Source of the DNA: an uncultured Bacteroidia bacterium | Lineage (GTDB): Bacteria; Bacteroidota; Bacteroidia; Bacteroidales; UBA932 | DNA: 64,000 nucleotides | Assembly: GCA_902778855.1 (NCBI GenBank) | Contig: CACYZM010000005.1 | Location: 1-64,000, forward strand | Direction: 5' to 3' | Translations under genes and position numbers: made by a program | Shown: piece after piece, positions 44,672-50,490 of the stretch | How the letters are laid out: each line of letters starts with the position of its first letter | Numbering within the stretch: the first letter of the stretch is position 1 | The notes under the pieces: model-generated | Told to the model about the DNA's origin: nothing | The model's input: the letters and a program-made list of their open reading frames with translations, nothing else | Databases searched by the model: none

Positions 44672-45007
44672 TTACTTTACAGGTGGCATTCTGTCGAGTG
44701 CTGCCCGGACGGCTTTTTCCCATTCTTCGGAATTGTCCATGTCAAAAGCGTTCTGTTTGGGAGCACGATGAAACAGTTTATAGACAAAACGTCGAATGGG
44801 ATACCGTCGTAAATCTTCTGCTTTCAACAATGCGTAAAAGCAGCGCTCCGTCCCATCTTCAGTATATGGGAACCGTAGTGTAATCCCCCTAAAGTTTGCT
44901 GTAATGATTTCTCCTTCTTTACATTCATTTTGGTCGTTGAGTTCGGCGCCCACACTAAAGAGCAGAGAGTGACGACCATACCAAGTGGAATCATCTTTAA
45001 TACTCAT
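44672..45007 (-). CDS. Hypothetical protein
   Basis: This 111-residue protein begins MSIKDDSTWYGRHSLLFSVG and ends EEWEKAVRAALDRMPPVK. It is soluble, with a beta-rich middle (GEIITANFRGITLRFPYTEDG) and a basic helix (LRRYPIRRFVYKLFHRAP). I see no family. It lies 22 bases upstream of nothing related on its strand; the receptor gene at 45030 is transcribed in the same direction but ends before this gene begins, so this gene would be read through from the receptor. Coding status rests on the intact frame and island-like composition. Confidence 0.5.
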   Translation of the reverse strand: MSIKDDSTWYGRHSLLFSVGAELNDQNECKEGEIITANFRGITLRFPYTEDGTERCFYALLKAEDLRRYPIRRFVYKLFHRAPKQNAFDMDNSEEWEKAVRAALDRMPPVK

Positions 45008-47339: not shown

Positions 47340-47456
47340 AATGCAGGCTAGTGCGGTTTTTCATCCCTACAGCCTGCATTTCAAATCATGATGAAAGAAA
47401 AAGATAAAGGGGGTAATTAGGTGCGGATTGAGGGGGTCAATTTAGTGCGGATTCTC
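47340..47456. mobile_element. Possible insertion-sequence end remnant
   Basis: GTGCGGATT occurs twice (47421-47429 and 47445-47453) with GAGGGGGTCAATTTA between, and GTGACCCCCTGGTC lies upstream at 47304. GGGGGTCA-type repeats next to short repeated ends recall IS21-family termini, but no transposase gene is in the window. AATGCAGGCT (47340-47349) and AGCCTGCATT (47371-47380) form a 10-bp hairpin beside it. The 3' end of the C39 peptidase gene runs into this segment. The rest of 47145-47339 shows no gene. Confidence 0.45.
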
Positions 47457-47697
47457 CACAAGGCATCGGCATCTCATCGCGCAATTGCTCCCAGGTGATC
47501 TTTACCCCGGTGGTCCGAAAGCCGATGAATTCGGCCGCATCACTGATGCCCAACAAGGAAACCCCCTCCCTGGTGATATGGCACCGCTCGCGCAGGGACT
47601 GCAGTGAATAGCTGCGCCCGTAGAACTTGGCCACCATTCGGAGACAGGTAGGACCGCAGTCCATTGCGTCGAGTTGAGTCAGGGAGGGGAATTTCAT
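47437..47697 (-). pseudogene. Truncated C39-type peptidase (exporter leader-peptidase domain)
   Basis: Starting at ATG 47697, the 86-residue frame begins MKFPSLTQLDAMDCGPTCLRMVAKFYG, with the catalytic Cys in DCGPTCL. It continues SLQSLRERCHITREGVSLLG and GFRTTGVKITWEQL, the N-terminal part of C39 peptidases of bacteriocin ABC exporters. The frame ends soon after MPMPC in ESALN, inside the GTGCGGATT repeat segment. The catalytic His and Asp of the C39 domain and any ABC-transporter part are missing. It would not be active as it stands. It is 4 bases downstream of the outer-membrane protein gene. Confidence 0.75.
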
Positions 47698-47701
47698 TGC
47701 G

Positions 47702-48259
47702 TTAGAATCTGAATCCAACTGTCATTGCAATACCGTGACCACCACCGCCAGTAAGGGAGAATCCTTGTTGACATCCCCAAATAAGGTTGAGCCCCACATT
47801 GACGCCAAGATTGTTGTGAATTCCGAAGTCAAAGCCGAGTTTCCCATTCAGATAAGGGAACAAACGCTGTGTATCCGTAGTTAATGGCAATTTCTTTATA
47901 TAATAGGCACCCCCAGCTTCCATACCCAAATAAAAAGAGGTTCGTTGGTGTTTGGCAAACGGGTAATACCGAATATAGTCGGCAAAAAGGGGGATTGCCG
48001 GTACGAACCCGTTTGAATAATCCGGGCCGTCACTGCTTGTTCTTTTTAGCCAGTGGCATCCCGTTCCAAGTCCGAGAAAGCGTTTCTCGTTGAAACGCCA
48101 ACCCAGAGAAAAGTCAGCCGTATAGTGAGGATCCCAGTATATGCCTGGGAGTGCACTACCTTTTACATTTCCTTGAAAGTGCCCTCTTGATGATGCGGTA
48201 CAAGGGATGGCTATACAAACAATAAAAGCTATTATTACCGGAGAATATCTGCATTTCAT
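47702..48259 (-). CDS. Small outer-membrane beta-barrel protein
   Basis: This 185-residue protein has a signal peptide (about residues 1-22, ending CTASS). The beta-rich body has repeated aromatic strands (DFSLGWRFNEKRFLGLGTG, SFYLGMEAGGAYYIKKL, FPYLNGKLGFDFG, NNLGVNVGLNLIWG) and ends MTVGFRF with a terminal phenylalanine, the outer-membrane insertion signature. No SusCD or channel family was recognised. It lies between the small peptide gene and the C39 remnant, so it may take part in export or reception of the peptide; this is inference from order. Confidence 0.72.
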   Translation of the reverse strand: MKCRYSPVIIAFIVCIAIPCTASSRGHFQGNVKGSALPGIYWDPHYTADFSLGWRFNEKRFLGLGTGCHWLKRTSSDGPDYSNGFVPAIPLFADYIRYYPFAKHQRTSFYLGMEAGGAYYIKKLPLTTDTQRLFPYLNGKLGFDFGIHNNLGVNVGLNLIWGCQQGFSLTGGGGHGIAMTVGFRF

Positions 48260-48315
48260 AACAAAAAATATTATAGATAAGCTATCCTTCTGACAAAGGC
48301 AAAAGGATAGTTACA

Positions 48316-48465
48316 TTATTGGACATAACTAACTCTATTATTCTGAGCGTGATAAGAAATGTCATACGGGGTCGGTATCTCATCTCCTTTGGTAAACCCT
48401 GAAATGGCAAAACTGTTGGAAAGGGCCACAAATAAAGTGGCACAGAATACGATAATTTTTCTCAT
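48316..48465 (-). CDS. Short secreted peptide (49 residues)
   Basis: The open frame from ATG 48465 to TAA 48316 encodes a 49-residue peptide. It has a clear signal sequence: basic RK, a hydrophobic core of IIVFCATLFVALS, and an SNSFA cleavage site. The 29-residue mature part begins ISGFTKGDEIPTPYD and ends NRVSYVQ. A TAATTTTG -7 box lies at 48490-48497 on the minus strand. There is no double-glycine leader, so it would leave by the Sec route. It is directly preceded by three GTAAGA palindromes and followed by an outer-membrane protein and a C39 peptidase fragment. Signalling or toxin roles are inferred. Confidence 0.65.
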   Translation of the reverse strand: MRKIIVFCATLFVALSNSFAISGFTKGDEIPTPYDISYHAQNNRVSYVQ

Positions 48466-48520
48466 AATTGTTGCGTTTTTTGTTCACTGCAAAATTATGA
48501 GAAGAACCAAAGCGAATTAC

Positions 48521-48544
48521 GTAAGACGCAAAATCCGGTCTTAC
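48521..48544. promoter_or_regulatory. GTAAGA palindrome 1
   Basis: GTAAGAC (48521-48527) and GTCTTAC (48538-48544) form a perfect 7-bp inverted repeat with a 10-base spacer, upstream of the small peptide gene. Confidence 0.6.
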
Positions 48545-48608
48545 AGTTTGGGTAAAAAGCAAAATCGTAAATGCGTGATATTAAACACGTTACGAGGACA
48601 GCTTTCAA

Positions 48609-48632
48609 GTGTAAGAAAAGTTTTTCTTACAC
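48609..48632. promoter_or_regulatory. GTAAGA palindrome 2
   Basis: GTGTAAGAAAA (48609-48619), GT, TTTTCTTACAC (48622-48632): a perfect 11-bp inverted repeat with the same GTAAGA core as palindrome 1. Confidence 0.6.
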
Positions 48633-48720
48633 ATTGTTTTCAATCAAGACCGCAGCCTTATAACCTGCTGAAAATCAATAATACACCCCCCCCTATAGCA
48701 TAAAGAGAGGCTTCCAAAAC

Positions 48721-48736
48721 TGTAAGATTCTTTACA
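48721..48736. promoter_or_regulatory. GTAAGA palindrome 3
   Basis: TGTAAGATTCTTTACA is near-palindromic (TGTAA/TTACA arms) and carries the GTAAGA core. It lies 27 bases from the stop of the regulator gene. The remainder of 48466-48762 shows no coding frame. Confidence 0.5.
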
Positions 48737-48762
48737 ATTCGCTGAATATCTGATAAATGCAA

Positions 48763-50490
48763 CTACAGTACCCGCAGATACTCGTCTTTATAGGGAGAAT
48801 TAAGCTGACGGATGCGTTCTCTTAAGCGCGAGCGCTTGGTGTAAACATTCGAGAGAGACAAGTTGAGCAGTGTTGCAACAATGTTTGGATCAAAGCCGGC
48901 AATCGTATAACAGATAAAGCGTGAGTCTTCATCACTAACCTTGCCCAAATCGGCTTTCAAACGAGCTACGACGTTGTTGAGGTCACGGTTGATCTGCTCC
49001 TCAAAAAGAGCATGCTGCTTTTTCTCTCTCCCGATGAAATAAATAATGTCCTTGACTTTTCCATATACTGCAGTCTTTCTGGCATCTTCTGACTTCTCTC
49101 GAAACTTCAGATAGGTTTTACATAGTGAGCTAACCGTATCGAACTGTCCCTTGAATAACTGGATATAAGACTGCTGCAGGGAAGAGATCTTGGACTGATA
49201 CTCCACGGAAGCTTTACGCCCGGCGGACTCCATCTCTTCAACCTGTGCCTCCAACGCAGACTTGGATTGGAGCAACAAAGCATTTGTTTCTTCGGCAATT
49301 CTGATCAGATTATCTGCAGCTATGCGTTCTTTCTCACTTCTCCGGATAGAAGTGATGATGATTGCGCCAAATAATAGAATCAGGCCCAATATGAGCACAA
49401 CAAAAGACAAGCGCTGAACTTGCGTTTGACGCTTTGATTCAATAGCCTGATTCTGATAATAATCCTGAAGAATGGTCGTAATCGAGTTGTTGAGCATTCT
49501 GTCCACATTCTTATCTTGTTCACTGTAGATATCTGTCAACAAATCGATAGTGCGCGAGTACTCTCCTCTATATTTAGAAATCAAAAAATCATAGTAACGT
49601 GTCTCTTTACGACGTATATCCGGCTGATTATCCAAAAAAGCCTGTATAGCATCACAAGTTTTATCATCCCCAACAAGTACAGAAGCATATGCGTATATAC
49701 CATACACCTTGAGTGGAAAGTTTAACTTATACTCCAATCGAGCTCGATTTAGCAGATCTATGGCCTCATGCGGTTTAGGATCAGGTTGAAGGACCATCAT
49801 TGTGGCATAATGTACAAGAAACATCCTCATTGCGGCTGTATCCCTTGTAGACAATTCAATCCCTTTTCGAAATAATGAATCAGCAATTGCCCATTCTTTT
49901 TTTTCTTGGTAGGACATAGCGAGTCGTCCGTATGAAAGATTATAATGAGCAGAATCATTCGCCGCATGAAAGAATTCCATCCCTTTTTCTATATATTCTC
50001 GTTCTTTGTCTGCGAAATGGGCACTTTTGTAAATATCAGCCATTGCCATAGATAAAAGGCCTTTAAAACAATCGTCATACGAATCAATTGATGCATCCTC
50101 GGCTTGAGTATAAGAGATGATTGCTGAATTTTGATTATGCCCATTCACATAAATACGCCCCAGATAGTAGTACGCCTTCATCTTCTGGTCAGCCGTTCCG
50201 TGCTTGGCATAATAATCCACCGCCGGCATCACAACGTTCACATCGGTCGTGTCGATCCAGTTCTTGTCGAGCGCCATCGCATGCAGCAAGGCATAGTGTG
50301 CGCGAAGGCTGCGGGTAGTCAGCATGGTAGTATCTATGGCGCGGATAGTGGCGAGGGCACTGTCAGGACGAGCCTGAATGTAGGTCTCTATATCATTGAG
50401 GGTCGCAGCGGTCTGGCGGCCGGCACAGGAGGCGAGAATAAGGGTGGCCAGTGTAAGGAATATGGGGAGGAGTATATGAGGACGTAACAT
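48763..50490 (-). CDS. TPR-containing membrane sensor with C-terminal HTH (regulator)
   Basis: This 575-residue protein has a lipoprotein-like signal (ILASCAGRQT) and TPR-like helices across about residues 30-330 (KMKAYYYLGRIYVNGHNQNSA and similar). A transmembrane segment lies near 350-378 (RLSFVVLILGLILLFGAIIIT), and a coiled coil at about 385-450 (ALEAQVEEMESAGRKASVEYQ). The cytoplasmic end (FICYTIAGFDPNIVATLLNLSLSNVYTKRSRLRERI) is a LuxR/sigma-like HTH. The Bacteroidetes TPR-HTH regulators of this type span the inner membrane and sense periplasmic cues. It lies upstream of the small peptide gene on the same strand, so it is the natural candidate to bind the GTAAGA palindromes. A TATATTTG -7 box lies at 50518-50525 on the minus strand. 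Confidence 0.8.
   Translation of the reverse strand: MLRPHILLPIFLTLATLILASCAGRQTAATLNDIETYIQARPDSALATIRAIDTTMLTTRSLRAHYALLHAMALDKNWIDTTDVNVVMPAVDYYAKHGTADQKMKAYYYLGRIYVNGHNQNSAIISYTQAEDASIDSYDDCFKGLLSMAMADIYKSAHFADKEREYIEKGMEFFHAANDSAHYNLSYGRLAMSYQEKKEWAIADSLFRKGIELSTRDTAAMRMFLVHYATMMVLQPDPKPHEAIDLLNRARLEYKLNFPLKVYGIYAYASVLVGDDKTCDAIQAFLDNQPDIRRKETRYYDFLISKYRGEYSRTIDLLTDIYSEQDKNVDRMLNNSITTILQDYYQNQAIESKRQTQVQRLSFVVLILGLILLFGAIIITSIRRSEKERIAADNLIRIAEETNALLLQSKSALEAQVEEMESAGRKASVEYQSKISSLQQSYIQLFKGQFDTVSSLCKTYLKFREKSEDARKTAVYGKVKDIIYFIGREKKQHALFEEQINRDLNNVVARLKADLGKVSDEDSRFICYTIAGFDPNIVATLLNLSLSNVYTKRSRLRERIRQLNSPYKDEYLRVL

Follow-up and report, generated by a model that had tools for sequence, protein, structure and literature searches.

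A 64-kb stretch of an uncultured Bacteroidia bacterium (contig CACYZM010000005.1, positions 1 to 64,000; hereafter the window, from a 2.4-Mb assembly that is 98% complete and labelled G000) carries a regulator gene followed by a gap with three inverted GTAAGA repeats, genes for a short peptide with a signal-peptide-like start and for a small barrel-like protein, and the start of a C39 exporter. This layout raises the question of whether the repeats are operators of the neighboring regulator and, if so, what that regulator controls. At a probability of about 0.78, we read the locus as a self-contained regulator-operator-cargo cassette, in which a transmembrane one-component activator would act through its own operators, phased to a promoter. 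An earlier sequence-only reading had seen the layout of a self-sensing peptide system; the four co-directional open reading frames (ORFs) that it listed all lie on the minus strand within the span it gave, and the 297 bases that it counted between the regulator and peptide genes are likewise borne out. Throughout, L-numbers denote individual loci and G-numbers genomes of the comparison set, with WIN as the window locus.

GTAAGA repeats in the regulator gap resemble operator sites

GTAAGA or its complement TCTTAC occurs 14 times in the window, five of them inside the gap against ~0.04 expected. All three repeats named earlier are present: an imperfect inverted repeat at 48721-48736 (TGTAAGATTCTTTACA); a perfect palindrome at 48609-48632 (GTGTAAGAAAAGTTTTTCTTACAC; 11-bp arms, 2-nt loop), here termed copy 1; and GTAAGA-N12-TCTTAC at 48521-48544, part of the copy 2 element (48521-48545), whose half-site TGTAAGA runs from 48545 to 48539 on the minus strand. 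When the gap was block-shuffled 2000 times, an inverted repeat with 11-bp arms arose 5 times; the gap's eight inverted repeats with 6-bp arms compare with 1.57 on average, and 10 at most, in shuffles. Across the assembly, GTAAGA-N2-14-TCTTAC is found at four places, two of them at this locus (reversed control, one). The other two were considered as regulon members and set aside, one lying within an ATPase-like gene and the other before a ParD-like gene. A GTAAGAAATATTCTTAC palindrome lies at 1845-1861 of contig 54 (L053), 27 bp upstream of a ParD-like gene (ATPase-like and ParD-like are names given by inspection).

From copy 1 to copy 2 the distance is 86 bp, and copy 2 in turn precedes by 48 bp a Bacteroidetes-type -7 box (consensus TAnnTTTG) at 48490-48497 on the minus strand (TAATTTTG). 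The closest ortholog, L014 (73% identical), shares with the window 23 of the middle palindrome's 24 bases, the outer half-sites and the promoter block, where TTCTTCTCATAATTTTGCA is identical. Only the middle repeat is still a palindrome there: the third site keeps its TGTAAGATT half alone, and the second arm of copy 2 (48526-48521) is lost. Taken together, the repeats look like candidate operator sites of the adjacent regulator.

Paired words at preferred spacings recur behind related regulators

Gaps were gathered behind homologous regulators from 25 metagenome-assembled genome (MAG) loci and from part of the listed places in the 149 genomes that represent the window's family. Usable ends were available for 89 regulators, from which 41 close ones were kept (at a 450-bit threshold, or as members of the operator set; the window's full copy replaced a duplicate of its own regulator) and 48 more distant ones dropped. 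The sites recur in these relatives, with close gaps tending to carry two copies of one 6-7 bp word at stereotyped positions behind the homologous regulators, in line with the earlier assignment of the repeats to the adjacent gene. An absence of the palindromes from homologous loci, which by the earlier reading would have refuted it, was therefore not what the comparison showed. Eight-mer repeats with one mismatch, counted at 74, 76 and 86 bp, were found in 9, 11 and 7 of the 41 loci (shuffle means 2.5, 2.0 and 2.5; maxima 7, 6 and 6); their sum over ten distances (72-77 and 83-86) was 46 against a mean of 23.7 and a maximum of 32 in 40 shuffles, and the remaining distances stayed at shuffle level. 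Exact 6-mer repeats in the 22 loci with a strict -7 box numbered 110, compared with a mean of 38 and a maximum of 62 in 200 shuffles.

Operator words were assigned by eye and hand to 26 of the 41 gaps: TGTAAG (nine loci), GGTAAG (L149), TGATAG, TGTTAG, GACAG, TGAAAG, TGAGAG and TGCAAG. Copy 1 stands upstream of copy 2 by 72-77 bp in 18 of the 26 and by 86 bp in five; of the other three, two have spacings of 65 and 63 bp and one has no copy 1. The distance from copy 2 to the -7 box (TAnnTTTG or a near form) is 38-40 bp in 12 loci and 48-49 bp in another 12, two preferred distances that differ by one helical turn; two worded loci lack such a box, one of which (L013) has a relaxed box at 49. An inverted partner (at least 5 of 6 bases, 8-23 bp on) accompanies copy 1 in 17 of 25 loci and copy 2 in 2 of 26 (raw counts). 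Because copy 2 mostly lacks such a partner, it would act as a half-site, and the palindrome at 48521 would be partly local. In distant BT3442 relatives (G252 and others), mostly no such operator repeat was found at the sensitivity used.

Further elements were observed in regulator gaps. Four regulators of G129 (L152, L154, L155 and L158) are followed by TCAC-type words at 75-76 bp spacing, and the recognition helices of L154, L155 and L158 have the form xLExTRxRK. A homopolymer of at least seven G (once C) occurs in nine of the 41 gaps, against a shuffle mean of 0.24: in the window, as a candidate slippage tract of eight G at 48686-48693 on the minus strand (C8 on the plus strand), and in L012, L017, L019 (minus), L025, L030, L098, L100 and L104. 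Eight of the nine tracts, L025 being the exception, are runs of G with a T immediately after them. Such tracts could make expression phase-variable. The first 250 nt of the 41 gaps also hold 29 forward copies, in 21 gaps, of WWTCARNNNNTTR, an element resembling the integration host factor (IHF) consensus and found, for example, in TTGATTATCAAnnnnTTAC forms (shuffle mean 2.2, maximum 7). The element may serve to bend the DNA or to bind another regulator.

The regulator is predicted to be a transmembrane protein with an external sensor

The 575-amino-acid (aa) regulator (48763-50490, minus strand) comprises a lipobox with Cys22, a tetratricopeptide repeat (TPR) solenoid to about residue 310, a membrane helix at about 361-383, a coiled coil and a predicted C-terminal helix-turn-helix (HTH), with the recognition helix placed at about residues 546-561. 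Cys22 is invariant in 17 aligned proteins (the window's and 16 relatives). Among the 39 full-length proteins of the 41 close regulators, all have a hydropathy peak of membrane-helix strength and 30 a lipobox-like pattern in the first 70 residues. The window's peak falls at 361-379 and is followed by IRRSEKER; because a lipobox is combined with a single helix that has basic residues behind it, the TPR domain is predicted to lie in the periplasm and the HTH in the cytoplasm. ToxR and CadC are one-component transmembrane regulators with a sensor outside, a DNA-binding domain inside and a single membrane helix. The window's regulator would resemble them in this plan, and differs in its reversed domain order and its HTH class.

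No Pfam family matched the regulator above its cut-off, and none of its HTH families matched. A sequence-profile search of the PDB returned 38 sequences at E<=0.01, all of them TPR or other helical-repeat proteins. The AlphaFold model (predicted local distance difference test score, pLDDT, 83) is all-helical, with a TPR solenoid, a long helix across the membrane segment, a coiled coil and the C-terminal HTH; its top Foldseek matches in the PDB are TPR proteins, including Rap and NprR receptors (TM-scores at most 0.41 by query length). The C-terminal domain modeled alone reached pLDDT 90 and gave weak matches, mainly to LuxR/NarL and sigma-4 HTH proteins and none at E<=0.001; FixJ, SigW, VqmA and EvgA came best and the ComA DNA-binding domain lower, all at E above 0.2. 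The C-terminus is thus predicted, from the model, to be a LuxR/sigma-4-like HTH.

By homology, the regulator appears to be an outlying relative within the BT3442 superfamily. It scores 66.8 bits against a cut-off of 940 for the BT3442 family model NF053779, and so is not a family member; the homology is near full-length (residues 12-560 against positions 8-545 of 563, E 1.6e-18), and lipobox, TPR, membrane helix and C-terminal HTH, the traits of the superfamily, are all present. Homologs of the regulator itself occur in 69 of the 149 family genomes, its own included. NF053779 matches at E<=0.001 extend to 108 of 119 Bacteroidales genomes, an upper bound; many may rest on the TPRs, since none exceeds the cut-off and matches also arise in 3 of the 14 non-Bacteroidetes genomes used as controls.

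Operator words covary with the recognition helix

The word found in a gap follows the recognition helix of the regulator that precedes it. Operator distance correlated with recognition-helix distance when TPR distance was held constant (partial Mantel r=0.35, 1 of 5000 permutations, 276 of 325 pairs usable), and operator against TPR distance given the helix yielded 0.003. Among single alignment columns, residue 551 ranked first of 547 for the central dinucleotide of the word (adjusted mutual information 0.62), with 457 second and 547 fifth in the full set, and it kept first place, among 549, when the set was reduced to 12 representatives sharing less than 45% C-terminal identity. Threonine at 551 goes with TA in 9 of 9 loci, serine with AC in 3 of 3, and glutamate or methionine with TT in 6 of 6; all nine TGTAAG loci carry Thr551. 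In the predicted recognition helix, roughly one turn separates residues 547 and 551. This pattern is what a DNA contact would give, with ancestry contributing part of the signal.

Several results weigh against the cassette reading or narrow it. In the window, some 6-mer occurring five times in the gap was matched by 144 of 2000 shuffles, and the best Foldseek E-value for the HTH model was 0.27. The words were assigned by hand: that of L019 (minus) was picked by promoter distance and has no copy 1, three copy 1 words agree in only 5 of 6 bases, L149 has an extra copy at 85, and copy spacings deviate in L098 (65) and L119 (63). Fifteen of the 41 close gaps received no word, and four of these show repeats of other words. 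Word privacy is incomplete, since the paralogs L013 and L016 of one MAG (RGIG5938) both use TGTAAGA; their copies are 86 and 73 bp apart, respectively, and this difference may help to keep the two apart. For the covariation, the operator-helix Mantel correlation falls to 0.23 given coil distance, and 12-residue sliding windows peak at 447-457, in the coil rather than the helix (ahead of residue 400, no window exceeds 0.39). C-terminal-domain ancestry therefore explains much of the signal, and the helix is singled out by the single-column test alone. Residue 547 falls outside the first 12 columns in the divergent set, and a full residue-to-base rule is broken by L149, which pairs lysine with TA, and by valine, which goes with five different dinucleotides.

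Proposed mechanism

We propose that the lipidated N-terminal TPR domain, predicted to be periplasmic, reads a signal there, and that the cytoplasmic C-terminal HTH, as a dimer, would bind the TGTAAGA sites that lie behind its gene, in the 297-nt gap. The half-site nearer the promoter, phased to the -7 box like an activator site, would turn on an operon of peptide, barrel and (formerly) exporter, and the palindrome 86 bp farther up would serve as a second, cooperative site. Paralogs would use words of their own, which residue 551, perhaps together with 547, would partly read. In this genome the operon appears damaged where it ends, since only 77 residues of the exporter precede a mobile-element-like end. 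The regulator probably controls the secreted-protein genes behind its sites, and the exported product of the first gene would be the natural candidate for its ligand. The sequences themselves show the layout, spacing, covariation and truncation, from which binding, activation, topology, dimer formation and cooperativity are inferred.

Secreted cargo and the first gene of the operon

The first gene behind the promoter is the 49-aa ORF (48316-48465, minus strand), which has a signal-peptide-like start and occupies the slot held in related loci by a DUF3244-like gene. A hairpin, CTATCC...GGATAG at 48282-48310 on the minus strand, separates it from the 185-aa barrel-like gene (47702-48259, minus strand). 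The sequence-only reading had called the latter a small outer-membrane protein; the ORF stands, and the barrel assignment rests on homology to barrel-like proteins and inspection, with no match in Pfam. Barrel homologs occur in 10 of the 149 family genomes (own included), and weak ones (E 1e-4 to 1e-3) lie downstream of the related regulators L151, L020 and L153. A conserved order of regulator, peptide, barrel and C39 gene, for which the earlier reading had called for a search, was absent from nine annotated loci; five of these surround barrel homologs, none of which is accompanied by a regulator of this kind (the barrel loci L134 and L135 are outside the nine). A TonB-receptor gene was also considered as an operon member and rejected, with weak similarity to a receptor near L013 only (E 3e-05). 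Beyond the window's TonB-type receptor gene lies a 111-aa protein (44672-45007) without a Pfam or NCBIfam match, a homolog of which (64% identical) is the first gene after the regulator in L013 and, by eye, the second gene after it in L014.

A profile built from 10 first-gene proteins and applied to downstream regions of 128 to 6000 nt found a DUF3244-like secreted protein in 23 of the 41 loci, the 10 members included; two of four first-gene proteins tested in Pfam matched DUF3244, below the cut-off. A C10 protease profile matched 8 of the 41 regions, and no C10 gene lies within 6 kb downstream in the window. We take BT_3441, an immunoglobulin (Ig)-like protein of B. thetaiotaomicron, to be a DUF3244 protein. 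The available text of one study describes BT_3441 as a homolog of BVU_0276 (PDB 3d33) and BT_3442 only as a multi-domain TPR protein, with operators unmentioned; in its BT_3442-BT_3433 cluster, as here, a TPR protein is followed by an Ig-like protein and secreted cargo (PMC2954219). In the parts of two further sources available, BT2221 (btiZ) is a staphostatin-like inhibitor tied to C10 proteases (PMC3462683) and is tabulated as DUF3244 (PMC10434189); a protease inhibitor may therefore be a frequent occupant of the first-gene slot. The relatives resemble the btp/bti and bfp/bfi operons, in which, by the same partial account, secreted C10 proteases are coupled to small exported proteins (PMC3462683), whereas the window has a 49-aa ORF in the first-gene slot and lacks the nearby protease.

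What, then, is the 49-aa peptide? One reading, to which we give somewhat less than even odds, is that it is a decayed DUF3244-like protein, of the staphostatin-like family of C10-protease inhibitors, in an operon that has lost its protease or exporter and is now decaying as a whole. The peptide sits in the same post-promoter slot as the DUF3244-like genes, the 10-protein profile, searched against six query sequences, aligns its N-terminal part, signal peptide included, in register at E 0.008, the operon end is visibly truncated, and a DUF3244-like gene at the same position in L016 is, by inspection, broken. Against decay, the mature part alone scores E 0.16, the ORF, promoter and regulator are intact, and the occurrence of short versions at three separate loci hints that the short form may function. 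Pfam gave no match of the peptide to DUF3244, and its mature part found nothing significant in Pfam, the family genomes or the DUF3244-like profile.

Self-sensing, in which the secreted 49-aa product would bind the periplasmic TPR domain and induce its own operon as an outward-facing counterpart of the streptococcal RopB-SIP-SpeB, appears unlikely to us. The RRNPP peptide receptors RapH, RapF, RapI and NprR with NprX are among the top PDB structures for the TPR model (at the TM-scores given above), a short secreted ORF followed by a barrel-like gene also fills the first-gene slot in two other loci (61 aa long in L026, 41 aa in L153), and C10 proteases, the SpeB class, stand under the same regulator type in the eight loci noted above. 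However, ordinary TPR proteins (consensus TPR, LGN) match the model equally well, TPR folds bind many other proteins, and the slot holds a DUF3244-like protein in 23 of the 41 related loci. Nor is the peptide conserved in sequence, an outcome that the earlier reading had named as one that would refute it: at E<=0.001 it matched 1 of 149 family genomes, the window's own, and none of the other 148, the next-best match (E 0.028) containing two stops. That reading had correctly observed that a double-glycine leader and a complete exporter are missing; both count against self-sensing, though the peptide's Sec-like N-terminus would suffice to reach the periplasm. RRNPP receptors are cytoplasmic and carry an N-terminal HTH, unlike the window's regulator with its lipobox, membrane helix, C-terminal HTH and predicted external TPR domain. 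The likeness to RopB-SIP-speB, as far as the available account goes, lies in a TPR sensor with an HTH, an adjacent target, a short peptide beside the regulator and, in some relatives, a C10 protease as target (PMC10071013).

That the repeats are RNA hairpins, a terminator or attenuator of the regulator transcript, is very improbable: the middle repeat does form a perfect hairpin and distant relatives have GC-rich terminator-like hairpins near this place, but copy 2 is usually a lone half-site (2 of 26 with a partner of at least 5/6 bases), the promoter spacing is phased by a helical turn, and the word covaries with a recognition-helix residue.

A truncated exporter at a mobile-element-like end

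The last ORF of the locus (47437-47688, minus strand; start methionine by homology, stop codon 47439-47437) had been taken for a C39 peptidase and is instead the cut-off start of an exporter. It covers positions 2-78 of 133 of the Pfam C39 model and 1-78 of 710 of an exporter model, which marks it as a fragment; homology stops at residue 77 (47458), and the last six residues are foreign. The 83-aa fragment is matched at E<=0.001 in 110 of the 149 family genomes (own included). At the 21 best places outside its own genome it is 64-79% identical to open frames of 734-779 aa, with all 21 alignments ending at query residue 77, and 10 of 10 annotated loci hold a long ORF that also matches the own genome's intact transporter over most of its length. 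The fragment is thus up to 79% identical to full-length peptidase-containing ATP-binding cassette (ABC) transporters (PCATs); unlike them, it ends after 77 exporter residues and lacks the ABC membrane and ATPase domains. The closest full-length homolog, L227, adjoins a TIGR04149 precursor of a ribosomally synthesized and post-translationally modified peptide (25.7 bits, cut-off 25). With a 580-aa L227 query, the own genome matched at this locus over residues 1-80 (79% identity), and the rest found nothing above 42%. A search for the exporter's remainder elsewhere ended with long ABC matches on contigs 64, 1 and 19 that were only 22-27% identical. A full C39 ABC transporter at 76228-78297 of contig 5, outside the window, was ruled a separate system because its identity to the fragment is 37% over 62 residues and that to L227 26%. 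Behind it lies a 68-aa ORF with a double-glycine-leader-like start (ELHSSELLLRGGG) and no family match; the two together (contig 5:76228-78578 = L044:12228-14578) form a separate candidate peptide export system.

The stub's frame terminates at a tandem pair of 23-24-bp repeats (47409-47456, the second unit with GGGGGTCAATTTAGTGCGGATT) resembling a mobile-element end, and a like pair occurs among other genes on contig 17. We read this as a mobile-element end that would have removed the exporter's remainder; a plasmid collection gave no useful match that names such an element at the truncation point, and an assembly mis-join is a possible alternative. The fragment starts 13 nt behind the barrel stop, and given this operon-like gap the exporter may once have been part of the operon.

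Implications for Bacteroidales regulation

The regulators are common in the window's family, with looser TPR relatives across Bacteroidales, and the literature searched (largely without subscription papers) contained no account of their operators or target sites. It is tempting, if speculative, to see in them a large undescribed Bacteroidales family of outward-looking TPR regulators with private paired operators and promoter phasing, a code linking residue 551 (perhaps also 547) to the central dinucleotide, secreted protease/inhibitor or peptide/barrel cassettes and the first-gene product as ligand of the periplasmic TPR domain, a RopB-SIP-SpeB counterpart outside the cytoplasm; we think this full picture improbable. 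With regulator, operator and promoter in one gap and a partial residue-to-base match, targets may be assigned from sequence, and the distinct regulator-operator pairs would form a set for gut Bacteroidales genetics. The locus also offers a way to ask whether periplasmic TPR domains let Gram-negative gut bacteria detect the small proteins that they themselves secrete.

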